A DNA stretch of 64,000 bases. It comes from Brumimicrobium salinarum (lineage in GTDB: Bacteria; Bacteroidota; Bacteroidia; Flavobacteriales_D; Crocinitomicaceae). The first letter of the stretch is position 1, and the number at the start of each line of letters is the position of its first letter. The position numbers and the translations under genes are program-made. Below the pieces are notes generated by a model that made no database searches, had not been told where the DNA came from, and worked only from the letters and a program-made list of their open reading frames with translations. The stretch is from positions 620,001 to 684,000 of the forward strand of contig NZ_PJNI01000001.1 in the NCBI RefSeq assembly GCF_002844555.1. Reading direction: 5' to 3'. Of this stretch, positions 21,323 through 46,081 are shown piece after piece.

Positions 21323-24300
21323 ATGAGCGTAAAATATCCAGAATATAAAGGGTTGAACTTACCCGAATCAGCAAAGAAAGTTGCTGAAAAGTGGAAACAA
21401 GAAAATGTTTTTCAAGCTTCCATTGATTCGAAAGATGATGACAAGACATTCGTATTTTTTGAAGGTCCACCTTCAGCTAACGGATTGCCTGGCATTCACC
21501 ACGTAATGGCACGTTCCATTAAAGATATATTTTGTCGCTATAAAACACTAAAAGGTTATAAAGTTAACCGAAAAGCAGGTTGGGATACGCACGGTTTACC
21601 CGTTGAATTAAGCGTTGAAAAAAAACTTGGAATTACCAAAGAAGATATCGGAGATAAAATTTCTGTGGAAGATTATAACGCTGCGTGTAAGAAAACAGTA
21701 ATGCGTTATACCGATGTTTGGAATAACCTTACCGAAAAAATGGGGTATTGGGTAGACATGGAAAATCCATACATTACTTATGAATCAAAATACATGGAAA
21801 GTGTATGGTGGTTGCTGGGTCAATTGTATGAGAAAAACATGATTTACAAAGGTTATACAATTCAACCCTACTCTCCAAAAGCGGGAACAGGTTTATCTTC
21901 TCACGAAATTAATCAACCTGGATGTTACCAAGATGTAAAAGACACTTCTTGTGTAGCTCAGTTTAAAGTGATTAAAGATGAAAAGTCGTCACACATCCCC
22001 CTTTGGAGGGGGAACGAGGGGGAGGATATTCACTTCCTCGCTTGGACAACCACTCCATGGACTTTGCCTTCTAACACAGCTTTAACAGTTGGTCCAAAAA
22101 TCGAATATGTTGTCGTAAAATCTTTTAACCAATATACTTTTGAACCAATTAATGTTGTTGTTGCGAAGCCTTTATTGAAAAAGCAATTCAACAAAAAGTT
22201 TAAGCAAGTTGAATCGGTTGAAGACCTAAAAACATACAAAGCAGGAGACAAAAAGATACCATTTTTCGTAGGAGAAACTTTTACAGGAAAAGATTTAGCG
22301 GGAATCCGTTATGAGCAGTTATTGCCTTATGCTCAACCAATGGAAAATCCAGAAAATGCGTTTCAGGTAATCTTAGGAGATTTCGTTACAACGGAAGACG
22401 GTACTGGAATCGTGCATACTGCGCCAACTTTTGGTGCTGATGATGCCATGGTGGCAAAGCAAGCAAAGGTTCCAGGAATGTTGGTAGCCGATGAAAATGG
22501 AAACCCTGTTCCTTTAGTAGATTTACAAGGTAAGTTCCGTCCAGAAATGGGTGAGTTTGCTGGAATGTATGTTAAAAATGAATATTATGACGAAGGAGAA
22601 GCTCCAGAGAAGTCTGTTGATGTTCAAATTTCGATTAAACTAAAAGAAGAAAATAAGGCTTTTCGTGTTGAGAAATACGAGCACAGTTACCCACATTGTT
22701 GGAGAACAGATAAACCGATTTTATATTATCCATTAGACTCTTGGTTCGTGAAAGTAACGGACAAAAAAGACAGAATGATGGAATTGAATAAAACCATTAA
22801 CTGGCAGCCAGAATCTACAGGAACAGGTCGTTTTGGGAAATGGTTGGAGAACTTAAACGATTGGAATCTTTCTCGATCACGTTATTGGGGAATTCCTATT
22901 CCAATTTGGAGAACAGAAGAAGGTGAAGAATCTATTTGTATTTCTTCAATCAAACAACTGAAAGAAGAATGTCAAAAAGCCGTTGAAGCAGGAGTAATGG
23001 ATGCAAACCCTTTAGCTGATTTCGATGTAAACGACATGTCGAAAGAGAACTACGATAAAGTAGACTTACATAAAAATTACGTTGATGAAATCACCTTGGT
23101 TTCTGCATCAGGAAAGCCAATGAAGAGAGAAGCAGACCTTATTGATGTTTGGTTCGATTCAGGCTCTATGCCTTATGCACAATGGCATTATCCTTTTGAA
23201 AATAAAGAATTAATCGACGAAGGAAAGGCTTTTCCTGGAGATTTTATTGCTGAAGGAGTAGACCAAACAAGAGGTTGGTTCTATACTTTGCATGCTATTG
23301 GAACCACTGTTTTTGATTCAGTAGCTTATAAAAATGTTATTTCCAACGGACTTGTTTTAGATAAAAACGGACAGAAAATGTCTAAAAGTAAAGGAAATAC
23401 GGTTGATCCATTTGAAACGATAGAAAAATTCGGACCGGATGCAACACGTTGGTATATGGTAACCAATGCTGCACCTTGGGATAACTTGAAATTTGATACT
23501 GAAGGAATTAAAGAAACACAACGTAAGTTCTTCGGAACACTTTACAATACCTATTCCTTCTTCTCTTTATATGCGAATATTGATGGATTTGCTTACAACG
23601 AAGATAGAATCGCAACGAAAGAAAGACCTGAAATTGACCGATGGATTATTTCGAAATTGAATTCTTTGATTCAGGATGTGGATCATGCATTTGATACTTA
23701 TGAACCCACAAAAGCAGGTCGTTTAATTCAAAGTTTTGTAAACGATCAGCTGTCAAATTGGTATGTACGTTTATGTAGAAGACGTTTCTGGAAAGGAGAT
23801 TATTCGGCAGATAAAATTTCAGCTTATCAAACTTTGTACGAATGTTTGGAAGCTGTCGCGATTTTAAGTGCGCCAATTGCACCGTTCTATACAGACGAAT
23901 TATTCTCTGACCTAAACAAGATTTCTGGTCGTCATGCGGCAACTTCTGTTCATTTAGCAGATTTCCCAACGGTTTGTGAGGAAGACATCGACAAAGAACT
24001 GGAAGCACAAATGGAAATTGCACAACAAGTTTCTTCTATGGCTTTGAGTTTACGTAAGAAAGAGCGCATTAGAGTACGTCAGCCTTTACAAAAAATCATG
24101 GTTCCTATTTTAGATCCAAGTTTCAAATCTAGAATTGAACACGTAAAAGATTTGATTCTTTCTGAAATCAACGTGAAGGAATTGCTTCTATTAGAAGATA
24201 CAACAGGCGTTTTAACGAAGAAAATCAAACCGAATTTCAAAACCATTGGACCGAAGTACGGAAAACAAATGAAATCTATCGCCGGAATGGTAAAAGATTG

Positions 24301-24742
24301 GGGCGATGAAGAAATTGCTGCTGTTGAAGCCAATGCTGGATGGAAAGGTGAGGTAAACGGTGAAAACATCGAATTAGAACTCAATGATTTTGAAATCGCT
24401 ACCGATGATATCCCTGGCTGGTTGTTGACTTCGGAAGGCGGAATTACCGTTGCCATGGACATCACTATTTCTCCAGAACTAAAGCAAGAAGGAATTGCCA
24501 GAGAATTGGTGAATCGTATTCAGAATTTTAGAAAAGAAGCAGATTTTGAAGTAACAGATAAAATTGAAGTAACTATAGAAACAACTGAAGAAATTCAAAA
24601 AGCAATCTTGGAAAACAAAGCATATATAGCCGCCGAAGTTTTGGCAAAAGACATTGTCATGAGCGAAGCCAAAGGACATGTTTATGATGCAGACATTGTT
24701 GAAGAAGGTGATGCGAAGATAGGTTTGGAGAAGATTAGTTAG
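21323..24742 (+). CDS. ileS: Isoleucyl-tRNA synthetase
   Basis: This cytoplasmic class I synthetase charges tRNA-Ile and edits valine. The 1139-residue product has the HIGH-type motif in PSANGLPGIHH (residues 50-60), the editing-domain signature LAWTTTPWTLPSN, the WFDSGSMPYAQ segment, and KMSKS at 685-689; length is normal for the long bacterial/eukaryal-like type. An in-frame palindromic repeat at 21994-22030 adds the peptide IPLWRGNEGEDI just before the TTTPW motif (see repeat entry and findings). The C-terminal tRNA-binding region continues to about 1130. The gene is monocistronic. Confidence 0.97.
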   Translation: MSVKYPEYKGLNLPESAKKVAEKWKQENVFQASIDSKDDDKTFVFFEGPPSANGLPGIHHVMARSIKDIFCRYKTLKGYKVNRKAGWDTHGLPVELSVEKKLGITKEDIGDKISVEDYNAACKKTVMRYTDVWNNLTEKMGYWVDMENPYITYESKYMESVWWLLGQLYEKNMIYKGYTIQPYSPKAGTGLSSHEINQPGCYQDVKDTSCVAQFKVIKDEKSSHIPLWRGNEGEDIHFLAWTTTPWTLPSNTALTVGPKIEYVVVKSFNQYTFEPINVVVAKPLLKKQFNKKFKQVESVEDLKTYKAGDKKIPFFVGETFTGKDLAGIRYEQLLPYAQPMENPENAFQVILGDFVTTEDGTGIVHTAPTFGADDAMVAKQAKVPGMLVADENGNPVPLVDLQGKFRPEMGEFAGMYVKNEYYDEGEAPEKSVDVQISIKLKEENKAFRVEKYEHSYPHCWRTDKPILYYPLDSWFVKVTDKKDRMMELNKTINWQPESTGTGRFGKWLENLNDWNLSRSRYWGIPIPIWRTEEGEESICISSIKQLKEECQKAVEAGVMDANPLADFDVNDMSKENYDKVDLHKNYVDEITLVSASGKPMKREADLIDVWFDSGSMPYAQWHYPFENKELIDEGKAFPGDFIAEGVDQTRGWFYTLHAIGTTVFDSVAYKNVISNGLVLDKNGQKMSKSKGNTVDPFETIEKFGPDATRWYMVTNAAPWDNLKFDTEGIKETQRKFFGTLYNTYSFFSLYANIDGFAYNEDRIATKERPEIDRWIISKLNSLIQDVDHAFDTYEPTKAGRLIQSFVNDQLSNWYVRLCRRRFWKGDYSADKISAYQTLYECLEAVAILSAPIAPFYTDELFSDLNKISGRHAATSVHLADFPTVCEEDIDKELEAQMEIAQQVSSMALSLRKKERIRVRQPLQKIMVPILDPSFKSRIEHVKDLILSEINVKELLLLEDTTGVLTKKIKPNFKTIGPKYGKQMKSIAGMVKDWGDEEIAAVEANAGWKGEVNGENIELELNDFEIATDDIPGWLLTSEGGITVAMDITISPELKQEGIARELVNRIQNFRKEADFEVTDKIEVTIETTEEIQKAILENKAYIAAEVLAKDIVMSEAKGHVYDADIVEEGDAKIGLEKIS
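21994..22030. repeat. Palindromic repeat inserted in frame in ileS
   Basis: The stretch holds the hairpin CCCCCT-TTGG-AGGGGG and then GAGGGGGAGGATATT. It is strikingly richer in G runs than the surrounding gene, encodes PLWRGNEGED and keeps the reading frame. A near copy sits in leuS at 44096-44131. Confidence 0.8.
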
Positions 24743-43231: not shown

Positions 43232-46081
43232 ATGAGTTACGATTTTAACGCAATAGAGAAAAAGTGGAGAAAACACTGGCAGGAAAACAATACTTACCAA
43301 ACTAAAGTTGAAACTGACCAACCAAAATATTATGGTTTAACAATGTTTCCTTATCCTTCTGGAGCTGGACTGCACGTTGGACATCCGCTAGGGTATATCG
43401 CATCGGATATTTATGCACGTTATAAAAAATTGAAAGGCTACAATGTTTTGCACCCAATGGGATACGATTCTTTTGGATTGCCTGCTGAACAGTATGCTAT
43501 TCAAACTGGACAACATCCTGCTGTAACCACAGAAGAAAACTTAAAACGATACCGAGAGCAACTCGATAAAATTGGATTTTCATTTGACTGGTCACGAGAA
43601 GTTCGAACTTCAGATCCGCAATATTACAAATGGACACAGTGGATTTTTAAACAATTATTTGCTGCTTACTATTGTAATGATGCCGATAAAGCTTTGCCAA
43701 TTGAAAATCTAATTGCTGTTTTTGAAAAAGAAGGAAATTCAAATGTAAACGCTGTTAATGCTTGCGAAATTGAGTTTTCTGCTGAAGAATGGAAGGCTTT
43801 TGATGCCAAAAAACAAGCAGATATCTTAATGGATTATCGCTTAACCTATTTGGCTGATTCATGGGTGAATTGGTGTCCAGCTTTGGGAACTGTTTTGGCC
43901 AATGATGAAATCGTAAATGGAGTTTCTGAGCGTGGCGGACATCCTGTAGAACAAAAGTTAATGCGCCAATGGTCCATGAGAATTACGGCTTATGCTGAAC
44001 GTTTGTTGAAAGGTTTAGACAAGCTCGATTGGTCAGATGCTGTAAAAGACATCCAACGCAATTGGATAGGCAAATCTGTTGGAGCATCGCTCCACTTCCC
44101 CCTATGGAGGGGGGTTGAGGGGGAGGATATTGACCCTAAAATCTCAGATGATACAACAATCGAAGTTTTTACAACTCGTCCCGATACAATTTACGGCGTT
44201 TCTTTCATGGTTTTAGCACCAGAACACGACTTAGTAAATCAAATTACAACAGACGAATATAAAGATGAGGTGGCTGCATATCAGCAAAAAGCTGGATTGA
44301 AATCTGAGCGCGACCGTATGGCAGATACCAAAACAATTTCTGGTCAATTCACAGGAGCTTACGCTGTACATCCTTTGAGTGGAGAGAAAATTCAAATTTG
44401 GATTGGAGATTACGTACTGGCTTCTTACGGAACAGGTGCTGTAATGGCGGTTCCTTGCGGAGACCAGCGTGATTGGGATTTTGCTAAGCATTTCGAAATT
44501 CCAATTAAGAATATTTTCGCTGACGTTTCGATTGAAGAAGGCGCCTACACAGAAAAGAAAGGGAAAATCGCTAATTCTGACTTTTTAAACGGATTAGAGG
44601 TTGATGAAGCCATCAAAAAAGCAATTGAAGTACTAGAAGACAAGAAAATTGGAAAAGCAAAAACAAATTACCGTTTAAGAGACGCTGTTTTTTCTCGTCA
44701 ACGTTATTGGGGAGAGCCGTTCCCTGTATATTATGATAAGGGAATTGCTAAAACAATTGATGATCAATATTTACCTATTGAATTACCTGAAGTAGATAAG
44801 TATTTACCTACCGAAGATGGTCAGCCGCCACTCGGAAACGCATACAATTGGTTTTGGGACAGTGAAAAAAACGAATTAGTTGGAAAAGATAAATCGGAAG
44901 AAGAAAACGTTCATCCGATGGAATTGAACACCATGCCAGGTTGGGCAGGAAGTTCTTGGTATTTCTTGCGCTACATGGATCCGCATAACGACAAAGCATT
45001 TGTTGCTAAAGAAAAAGTGGAGTATTGGAACAATGTAGATTTATACATCGGAGGAGCAGAACACGCTACGGGGCATTTATTATACGCTCGTTTTTGGTCC
45101 ATGTTCTTGCATGATTTTGGACATATTCCTTTCGAAGAGCCTTTCAAAAAGATGATTAACCAAGGAATGATCTTGGGGAGAAGTAATTTTGTTTACCGCG
45201 ATAAAGAAAGTGGGAAGTTTGTAAGTTTCGGAAAACGAAAAGAATATAAAACGTCGAGAATTCACGTTGACATCAACATAGTAGACAACGATATTCTTGA
45301 TACATCGGCGTTCAAATCTTCACGAGAAGAATATGCCAATGCAGAATTCATTTTGGAAGACGACGGAACTTATCTCTGCGGACACGAAGTTGAAAAGATG
45401 TCTAAATCGAAATTTAATGTTCAAAATCCAGATGATTTAGTTGAAAAATACGGTGCGGATACCTTGAGGATGTACGAGATGTTCTTAGGTCCAATCGAGC
45501 AAGCAAAACCTTGGGATATCAAAGGAATTAACGGAGTAAATAATTTCTTACGTAAACTATGGAGGTTGTTTCATGACCAAGACGGAAAAGTTGTACTTTC
45601 CGATGAAAAACCAACTGCAGATGCTTTAAAAACCTTGCATAAGACCATCAAGAAAGCCCAAGAAGACATGGATCGTTACGTGTTCAACACTTCTGTTTCT
45701 GCAATGATGATTTGTGTAAATGAATTAACAGAGCAAAAATGTAACAACAAAACAATTCTTCAAGATTTAGTGGTGTTGTTAGCGCCTTATGCTCCGCATA
45801 TTTCAGAAGAACTTTGGACAATTTTAGGCAATGAAGCAGGAACTGTTTCTGAGGCAAAATATCCTGTTTGTAACGAAGATTATTTAGTTGAAGACACTTT
45901 TGAATATCCAGTGAGTTTTAACGGAAAAATGCGTTTCAAAGCAGAATTAGCCAATGATTTATCAAAAGATGAGATAGAAAAAGAAGTTCTTGGCATGGAG
46001 AAATCACAAAAGTATTTAGAAGGAAAAACACCGAAAAAAGTGATTGTTGTTCCTGGAAGGATAGTCAATATTGTGGTTTAG
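43232..46081 (+). CDS. leuS: Leucyl-tRNA synthetase
   Basis: This cytoplasmic class I synthetase charges tRNA-Leu. The 949-residue product has the HIGH motif as HVGH (48-51) in PYPSGAGLHVGHPLGY, the editing-domain threonine-rich loop TTRPDTIYGVSFM with LAPEHD, GTGAVMAVPCGDQRD, and KMSKS at 722-726. An in-frame palindromic repeat at 44096-44131 adds HFPLWRGVEGEDI just before the TTRPD motif, as in ileS. The C-terminal domain ends in the usual KVIVVPGRIVNIVV. A consensus promoter lies 28 bp upstream. Confidence 0.97.
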   Translation: MSYDFNAIEKKWRKHWQENNTYQTKVETDQPKYYGLTMFPYPSGAGLHVGHPLGYIASDIYARYKKLKGYNVLHPMGYDSFGLPAEQYAIQTGQHPAVTTEENLKRYREQLDKIGFSFDWSREVRTSDPQYYKWTQWIFKQLFAAYYCNDADKALPIENLIAVFEKEGNSNVNAVNACEIEFSAEEWKAFDAKKQADILMDYRLTYLADSWVNWCPALGTVLANDEIVNGVSERGGHPVEQKLMRQWSMRITAYAERLLKGLDKLDWSDAVKDIQRNWIGKSVGASLHFPLWRGVEGEDIDPKISDDTTIEVFTTRPDTIYGVSFMVLAPEHDLVNQITTDEYKDEVAAYQQKAGLKSERDRMADTKTISGQFTGAYAVHPLSGEKIQIWIGDYVLASYGTGAVMAVPCGDQRDWDFAKHFEIPIKNIFADVSIEEGAYTEKKGKIANSDFLNGLEVDEAIKKAIEVLEDKKIGKAKTNYRLRDAVFSRQRYWGEPFPVYYDKGIAKTIDDQYLPIELPEVDKYLPTEDGQPPLGNAYNWFWDSEKNELVGKDKSEEENVHPMELNTMPGWAGSSWYFLRYMDPHNDKAFVAKEKVEYWNNVDLYIGGAEHATGHLLYARFWSMFLHDFGHIPFEEPFKKMINQGMILGRSNFVYRDKESGKFVSFGKRKEYKTSRIHVDINIVDNDILDTSAFKSSREEYANAEFILEDDGTYLCGHEVEKMSKSKFNVQNPDDLVEKYGADTLRMYEMFLGPIEQAKPWDIKGINGVNNFLRKLWRLFHDQDGKVVLSDEKPTADALKTLHKTIKKAQEDMDRYVFNTSVSAMMICVNELTEQKCNNKTILQDLVVLLAPYAPHISEELWTILGNEAGTVSEAKYPVCNEDYLVEDTFEYPVSFNGKMRFKAELANDLSKDEIEKEVLGMEKSQKYLEGKTPKKVIVVPGRIVNIVV
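44096..44131. repeat. Palindromic repeat inserted in frame in leuS
   Basis: The hairpin CCCCCT-ATGG-AGGGGG and the following GAGGGGGAGGATATT repeat the ileS element at 21994-22030 with few changes, all in the loop or spacer. It encodes PLWRGVEGED. Confidence 0.8.

Follow-up and report, generated by a model that had tools for sequence, protein, structure and literature searches.

The window, a stretch of 64,000 nucleotides from Brumimicrobium salinarum, contains the genes of two paralogous tRNA ligases, leuS and ileS, each of which carries in frame one copy of the same short repeat shortly before an intact editing-domain motif. The features concerned, all on the forward strand, are listed below.

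43232..46081, + strand: leuS, leucine--tRNA ligase, the host gene of the finding (ORF; NCBIfam TIGR00396, 919.5 bits)
44096..44131, + strand: leuS repeat copy, 36 bases, codons FPLWRGVEGEDI; its 30-base core is at 44098-44127
44098..44113, + strand: proximal hairpin of the leuS copy, CCCCCT-ATGG-AGGGGG (from sequence; structure by analogy with the whalefall-1 model)
44118..44127, + strand: tail of the leuS copy, AGGGGGAGGA (from sequence; in other copies it aligns to the 3' portion of the whalefall-1 model)
44171..44188, + strand: TTRPDT, intact, which we take to be the LeuRS editing-domain motif (sequence, ORF)
21323..24742, + strand: ileS, isoleucine--tRNA ligase (ORF; TIGR00392, 1004.2 bits)
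21995..22030, + strand: ileS repeat copy, codons IPLWRGNEGEDI; core at 21997-22026; whalefall-1 30.6 bits
22043..22066, + strand: IleRS editing-domain motif WTTTPWTL, intact (ORF)

Repeat copies in leuS and ileS

The letters of the window at 44096-44131 are TTCCCCCTATGGAGGGGGGTTGAGGGGGAGGATATT, in frame with leuS and translated FPLWRGVEGEDI just before TTRPDT, and the ileS core at 21997-22026 is CCCCCTTTGGAGGGGGAACGAGGGGGAGGA. The two 30-base cores were identical at 26 of 30 bases, and the four differences were confined to the hairpin loop (one) and the spacer (three), while both stem arms and the tail were the same; the earlier note's description of a near-identical block in leuS before TTRPD, varying in loop and spacer with its stem kept, was thus borne out. 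Both cores fit the pattern CCCCCTTTGGAGGGGGNNNGAGGGGGAGGA, with the in-frame reading PLWRGxEGED. With up to three mismatches this pattern occurred at 5 places in the 3.41 Mb of the genome and its reversed control at none; a shorter form of the pattern gave 6 places (the sixth degenerate) and 1 control match.

RNA folding of the leuS and ileS 36-mers was no better than that of shuffled sequences (z 0.56 and -0.61 respectively), and in the minimum-energy fold the 5' arm pairs with the distal tract. Because the folding energy of single sequences showed no excess over shuffles, it is the repeat family and the Rfam model that justify the term "hairpin".

To place the inserts in the proteins, fragments of the editing domains were modelled from 34 (LeuRS) and 30 (IleRS) family sequences. 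The LeuRS insert lay between strands 86-93 and 110-115 in a weak model (mean pLDDT 58.6, ~61 in the loop region), and the IleRS insert between strands 55-61 and 82-87 (mean pLDDT 75.5). Moreover, alignment with the solved structures of LeuRS (1h3n) and IleRS (8c8w) gave a gap at the insert, at this turn. In the models, therefore, the insert sits at the matching place, between two beta strands, in both editing domains.

Dispersal of the repeat and the same turn in relatives

The window's own genome (G000) was one of 200 genomes drawn from the family. The repeat was present in 96 of the 200, with up to 35 copies (G096), and the reversed pattern in none; the further copies and assemblies whose absence the earlier note would have counted against it are thus numerous. 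In a hand-picked sample of 40 further stretches from the listing, known leuS and ileS copies left out, 53 matches including at least two overlapping duplicates represented ~50 distinct copies, none of which was inside an ATG frame of at least 150 aa. Between two frames lay 48 copies (some double-counted matches included), 38 of them between same-direction genes, 7 between convergent and 3 between divergent ones. Inverted pairs were found in 7 of the 40 stretches (one self-overlap not counted), and clusters were also seen. A MITE with a conserved spacer between the inverted pairs was considered and rejected, as the spacers differ among loci. The intergenic copies had no common flank except a pyrimidine-T before the core.

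Several arrangements were observed in passing. The own genome has at C1:225.4-226.4 kb (L001-L003) a separate cluster of six copies, with three inverted pairs in a tandem-like array; elsewhere, G027 (L200) has a similar array with four pairs, and in G056 (L198) five copies follow one another in the same direction. At L030 and L207 (G024 and G085) the tail GGAGGA precedes an ATG by a few bases, in the manner of a ribosome-binding site, ahead of a frame MKSKLNRSE[TA]LA..., twice in L207.

In a second sample, the 30 best copies from 30 genomes, those inside real genes were in ileS (G000, G102), leuS (G094, L037) and one HsdM gene (G027); the HsdM copy (L018) is in frame, near residue 420 of 500. 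Against gene length, leuS and ileS were enriched (5 of 149 listed copies, p 1e-5), also when the window's own genome was left out (3 of 144 listed copies, p 0.0025).

The leuS homologues comprised 80 named records, which were aligned, plus the family genomes; the nearest named record by leuS identity was Brumimicrobium mesophilum (87%). In the aligned homologues the insert was always between GKSxGASxxF and IEVFTTRPDT, and those lacking the repeat also lacked the peptide; retention of the peptide without the hairpin, which the earlier note would have counted against it, was thus not seen among them. Fragments of leuS were matched in 186 genomes and 149 were listed, of which 42 were long (645 nt or more, the commonest span being 630); both this listing and that for ileS were ranked by similarity to insert-carrying queries. 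All 42 were fetched, and by pattern rules written after the sequences were read (the window's own leuS by eye) 33 were assigned to a repeat type and 9 were not. The 33 assigned loops held the repeat of the window, hereafter the whalefall-type repeat (16 loops), a TTCGACTCCGCTCA-type repeat (11) or a GCAATT-type repeat (6). The 16 whalefall-type loops came from 8 of 24 genera, in these orientations:

forward leuS copies (14): G000, G094, G111, G149, G116, G130, G093, G096, G082, G013, G180, G035, G062, G128
reverse leuS copies (2): G104, G010

The FPLW frame was used by 13 of the 14 forward copies. In the named records L055 and L059 the forward copy is followed by PLNLPSRGE, which by eye resembles a reverse copy.

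The matching IleRS turn was often occupied by GTAG palindromes. Among 179 genomes with an ileS match, we fetched 46 fragments, namely the 30 best matches plus 16 taken from the longer ones, and parsed 43, in which we found GTAG palindromes (9 loops), the whalefall-type repeat (4), the GCAATT type (4) and a TTCGACTCC-type (4). A stricter palindrome scan returned 8 loci, all in ileS. At L133, L143, L265, L267, L268, L271, L273 and L280, in-frame 28-base GTAG...CTAC palindromes lie in the IleRS editing domain, with stems that differ between genomes. The non-whalefall types were themselves multi-copy in carrier genomes, e.g., TTCGACTCCGCTCAG occurred at 62 places in G119, and in G054 the palindrome occurred at 17, its ileS included. 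There was no TTCGACTCCGCTCAG place at 1 mismatch in G046, no GCAATT place in G165 (which was not assigned to the GCAATT type), and no match to the GATAGGGCATGCCC palindrome in G093, G085, G086 and G037, though the ileS loops of these four hold related palindromes. By assigned types, one repeat type was common to both enzymes in G000, G130, G147, G185, G107 and, weakly, G119; in G147 the GCAATT repeat was listed in both leuS and ileS.

A check of valS, which the earlier note had proposed, was run on the same 200 genomes, 187 of which matched. The shortest listed valS span was 2535 nt and the longest 2577 nt (read by eye, with 12 spans, both extremes among them, also computed), and no insertion was seen in ValRS, the third paralogue: the turn before ATTRPET was short in 27 of 27 readable loci among the 30 best-matching, a set that leans towards the norm because it consists of the best matches to the model.

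Origin of the insertions

The most probable explanation, in our judgement, is that both editing domains have a beta-hairpin turn tolerant enough to retain, time and again, the mobile repeat that happens to be active. The block in leuS is a single member of a dispersed family of REP-like DNA repeats, with a short-loop hairpin, a ~4-base spacer and a purine tail (AGGGGGAGGA). It has entered, in frame, the turn that joins two beta strands where the LeuRS editing (CP1) domain starts, and a sister copy has entered the matching IleRS turn. Over the family, the turn would be a recurrent landing place for the repeat family active in a given genome, and frame-keeping insertions would not be purged because the turn tolerates extra residues. 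The repeats would move as DNA, the turn would be selectively neutral to lengthening and both enzymes would work normally. The permissive surface loop offered by the earlier note is the part of its interpretation that found support: both inserts fall between two strands in the models, and at the same position several other genera hold in-frame insertions in both orientations and of unrelated repeats.

The note had also offered targeted insertion, in which the repeat machinery prefers a DNA feature at the leuS/ileS site beyond mere protein tolerance. This is unlikely, even though part of the data leans its way: i) the codon position is the same across many genera; ii) the repeat families are split by gene, with GTAG palindromes in 9 ileS and 0 leuS loops and the whalefall-type repeat in 4 ileS and 16 leuS loops, a partition which counts against plain tolerance because tolerance does not predict it; iii) by eye, host bases extend the GTAG palindrome in several ileS loci, e.g., GCC ... 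GGC in L133, L271 and L280. However, one and the same loop accepts unrelated families in both orientations and several frames, and beyond the pyrimidine-T before the core the intergenic copies share no flank.

Short-patch gene conversion, in which the leuS copy derives from the ileS copy or the reverse, with a few flanking bases, in this genome, we likewise regard as improbable. Among 120 other copies the own ileS copy ranked first in flank match to the leuS copy, with 10 of the 12 nearest bases identical (4/5 left, 6/7 right), so that short copying between the two genes is possible in this genome; the peptide frame is also common to both copies. On the other hand, leuS and ileS did not match beyond these ~12 flanking bases, and their copies have 4 mismatches in 30 bases, against none between the ileS copies of G000 and G102. 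Moreover, in G102 the leuS loop is empty although ileS carries its copy, and other genera have different linkers and repeat families. Since the G102 loop is empty and the copies differ in loop and spacer, conversion, as the earlier note had it, is not supported as a general explanation, and ileS-leuS copying cannot explain the insertions in other genera.

Within the genus, the leuS copy was found in G000 and G094, with the linker DIxPxI common to both; in G094 ileS was not found at the cut-off used. In the leuS tree (outgroup row out_G165, i.e., locus L165 of genome G005), G094 grouped with G043 and G086 (support 0.95 and 0.92) and not with G000 and G102. Because G000 and G094 stand apart in the tree yet have like linkers, one has to assume an insertion in parallel, recombination, or an early insertion that was later lost elsewhere.

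A further reading, to which we give quite a low probability, is that integration is actively targeted, in a family-specific way, to the point where the editing domains of LeuRS and IleRS begin (GTAG palindromes in ileS, whalefall-type in leuS), and that the whalefall-type repeat is perhaps a three-stranded DNA element with a tail that is the mirror image of the hairpin's purine arm and varies along with it. Among 96 unique copies, which are related by descent and were gathered with the pattern, the tail followed the purine arm when the two were set in mirror register (A/A cells: 10 matched, against 10 and 5 unmatched), but hardly in direct register (only 1 matched, against 19 and 14 unmatched). 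Covariation was also seen between positions 10 and 28 (G-G 69, A-T 23, 4 others). By eye, the whalefall-1 consensus does not keep the mirror. The mirror-register variation would fit a third strand but may reflect shared descent.

It is very unlikely that the encoded peptide is functional, i.e., a selected extension of the editing domain of which the repeat is the DNA footprint. One frame does prevail in the forward leuS copies, but this is partly expected: in that frame the GAA subfamily carries a TGA stop, and only 41 of the 96 unique copies are open in the third forward frame; furthermore, other frames, the reverse orientation and unrelated peptides also fill the loop, and close relatives lack the peptide. 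Hardly any weight goes to a regulatory RNA element acting on the leuS and ileS mRNAs, as whalefall-1 was classed ("certainly" an RNA, in the wording of excerpts of PMC2864571): the ileS copy does match whalefall-1, but the copies lie inside coding sequence, fold no better than shuffles, are dispersed in high number and in inverted pairs, and are replaced by unrelated repeats in relatives.

Known repeat systems, whalefall-1 and a candidate mobiliser

In cmscan, copies from the family matched whalefall-1 (RF01762) with at best 34.3 bits, below the gathering score of 37; the ileS copy reached 30.6 bits and the leuS copy gave no match. The hairpin and the AGGGxGAGGA tail aligned to whalefall-1 in the ileS and intergenic copies, and for the leuS copy the correspondence is by sequence only. 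The family copies match the model end to end and share with whalefall-1 the hairpin with a UUGG-type loop and the conserved tail AGGGxGAGGA(C). Unlike whalefall-1, the window copies lack the stretch of 22-24 positions between hairpin and tail (by eye a second hairpin in L359) and have 1-3 bases instead. By its anatomy of a hairpin and a AGGGGGAGGA tail, the repeat is a sub-threshold relative of whalefall-1. Matches to Rfam microRNA and snoRNA families fell below their own gathering scores and were taken as chance.

Whalefall-1 itself was described as found in whale-fall DNA only, and as "certainly" an RNA, in excerpts of Weinberg et al. 2010 (PMC2864571). Of 148 phylum genomes, 13 had full whalefall-1 at an E-value of 0.001 or better, and in 7 it exceeded the cut-off; G337 had at least 35 matches, and inverted pairs occurred, e.g., G337:C2:107014 (+) and 107101 (-) (loci L301-L310, L341-L344 and L359); the window's genome gave no match under the stricter filters of this phylum search. 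Full whalefall-1 is dispersed and often inverted-paired in some genomes of the phylum, which suggests that it is a repeat family first. Thus a family catalogued among structured RNAs, with environmental DNA as its sole known source, appears as a dispersed repeat of bacterial genomes, which bears on how repeats enter RNA catalogues.

As for mobilisation, Y1_Tnp genes were present in 119 of the 200 genomes, and more often in those with at least 5 repeat copies (39 of 50) than in the others (80 of 150; p 0.003, from by-eye counts with kinship ignored); 11 of the 50 copy-rich genomes have no Y1_Tnp gene. No repeat lay beside a Y1_Tnp gene in 36 stretches, the sole match being the leuS copy itself, nor were GTAG palindromes found in 19 of these stretches. 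In G237 and G252, a full whalefall-1 copy stands ~0.3-0.4 kb from a RAYT gene (NF047646, over cut-off), on one side and in one genus. Given the Y1_Tnp excess in copy-rich genomes and the RAYT near whalefall-1, with none beside the repeat, a single-strand transposase is a plausible mobiliser. Subclass 2.6 TnpA-Y1, reported with "atypical secondary structures" in Bacteroidetes in excerpts of PMC6006769, is a candidate because the phylum is right and the repeat atypical (compared by description).

Two further observations concern such genes. The own genome carries at C5:18.3-20.9 kb (L193) two RAYT genes, 201 aa each with the same starting residues and scores, 2 kb apart; their proteins exceed the NF047646 cut-off, and no whalefall-type repeat or GTAG palindrome was found near them. 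At L194, L195 and L196, leuS is followed ~0.5 kb downstream by a Y1_Tnp gene; the three genomes concerned (G094, G086 and G043) group in the leuS tree.

The LeuRS/IleRS loop offers a natural experiment on the persistence of short mobile repeats inside essential genes and on the enzyme loops that accept new peptides. Intragenic REPs are already known, including REPs in tRNA synthetases and in-frame REPs in tnpA-REP genes, as reported in excerpts of PMC3733652 and PMC6006769, which describe REP/REPIN with RAYT (TnpA-REP) as 20-40 base palindromes, intergenic at same-direction or convergent genes and forming inverted pairs. In the open-licence literature we found no earlier description of one loop, common to two paralogous essential enzymes, on which several repeat families have landed recurrently.

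Like REP/REPIN, the repeat is a short palindrome in many dispersed copies (in the own genome only 5 plus the six-copy cluster), intergenic at mainly same-direction or convergent genes, with inverted pairs and occasional in-frame intragenic copies. It differs in that the foot GT[AG]G is as a rule absent from the core and its 12-base flanks, and in that no cognate RAYT gene flanked by the whalefall-type repeat was found (36 Y1_Tnp stretches). Rickettsia palindromic elements (RPE) are palindromes that have inserted, with the reading frame kept, at tolerated places of conserved protein genes. They are mentioned in excerpts of PMC3733652. The repeat appears to belong to another sequence family than RPE and is from another phylum, and its sampled copies are intergenic except for those in leuS, ileS and one hsdM; by description it is like them in forming in-frame palindromes in conserved protein genes at places that tolerate them.
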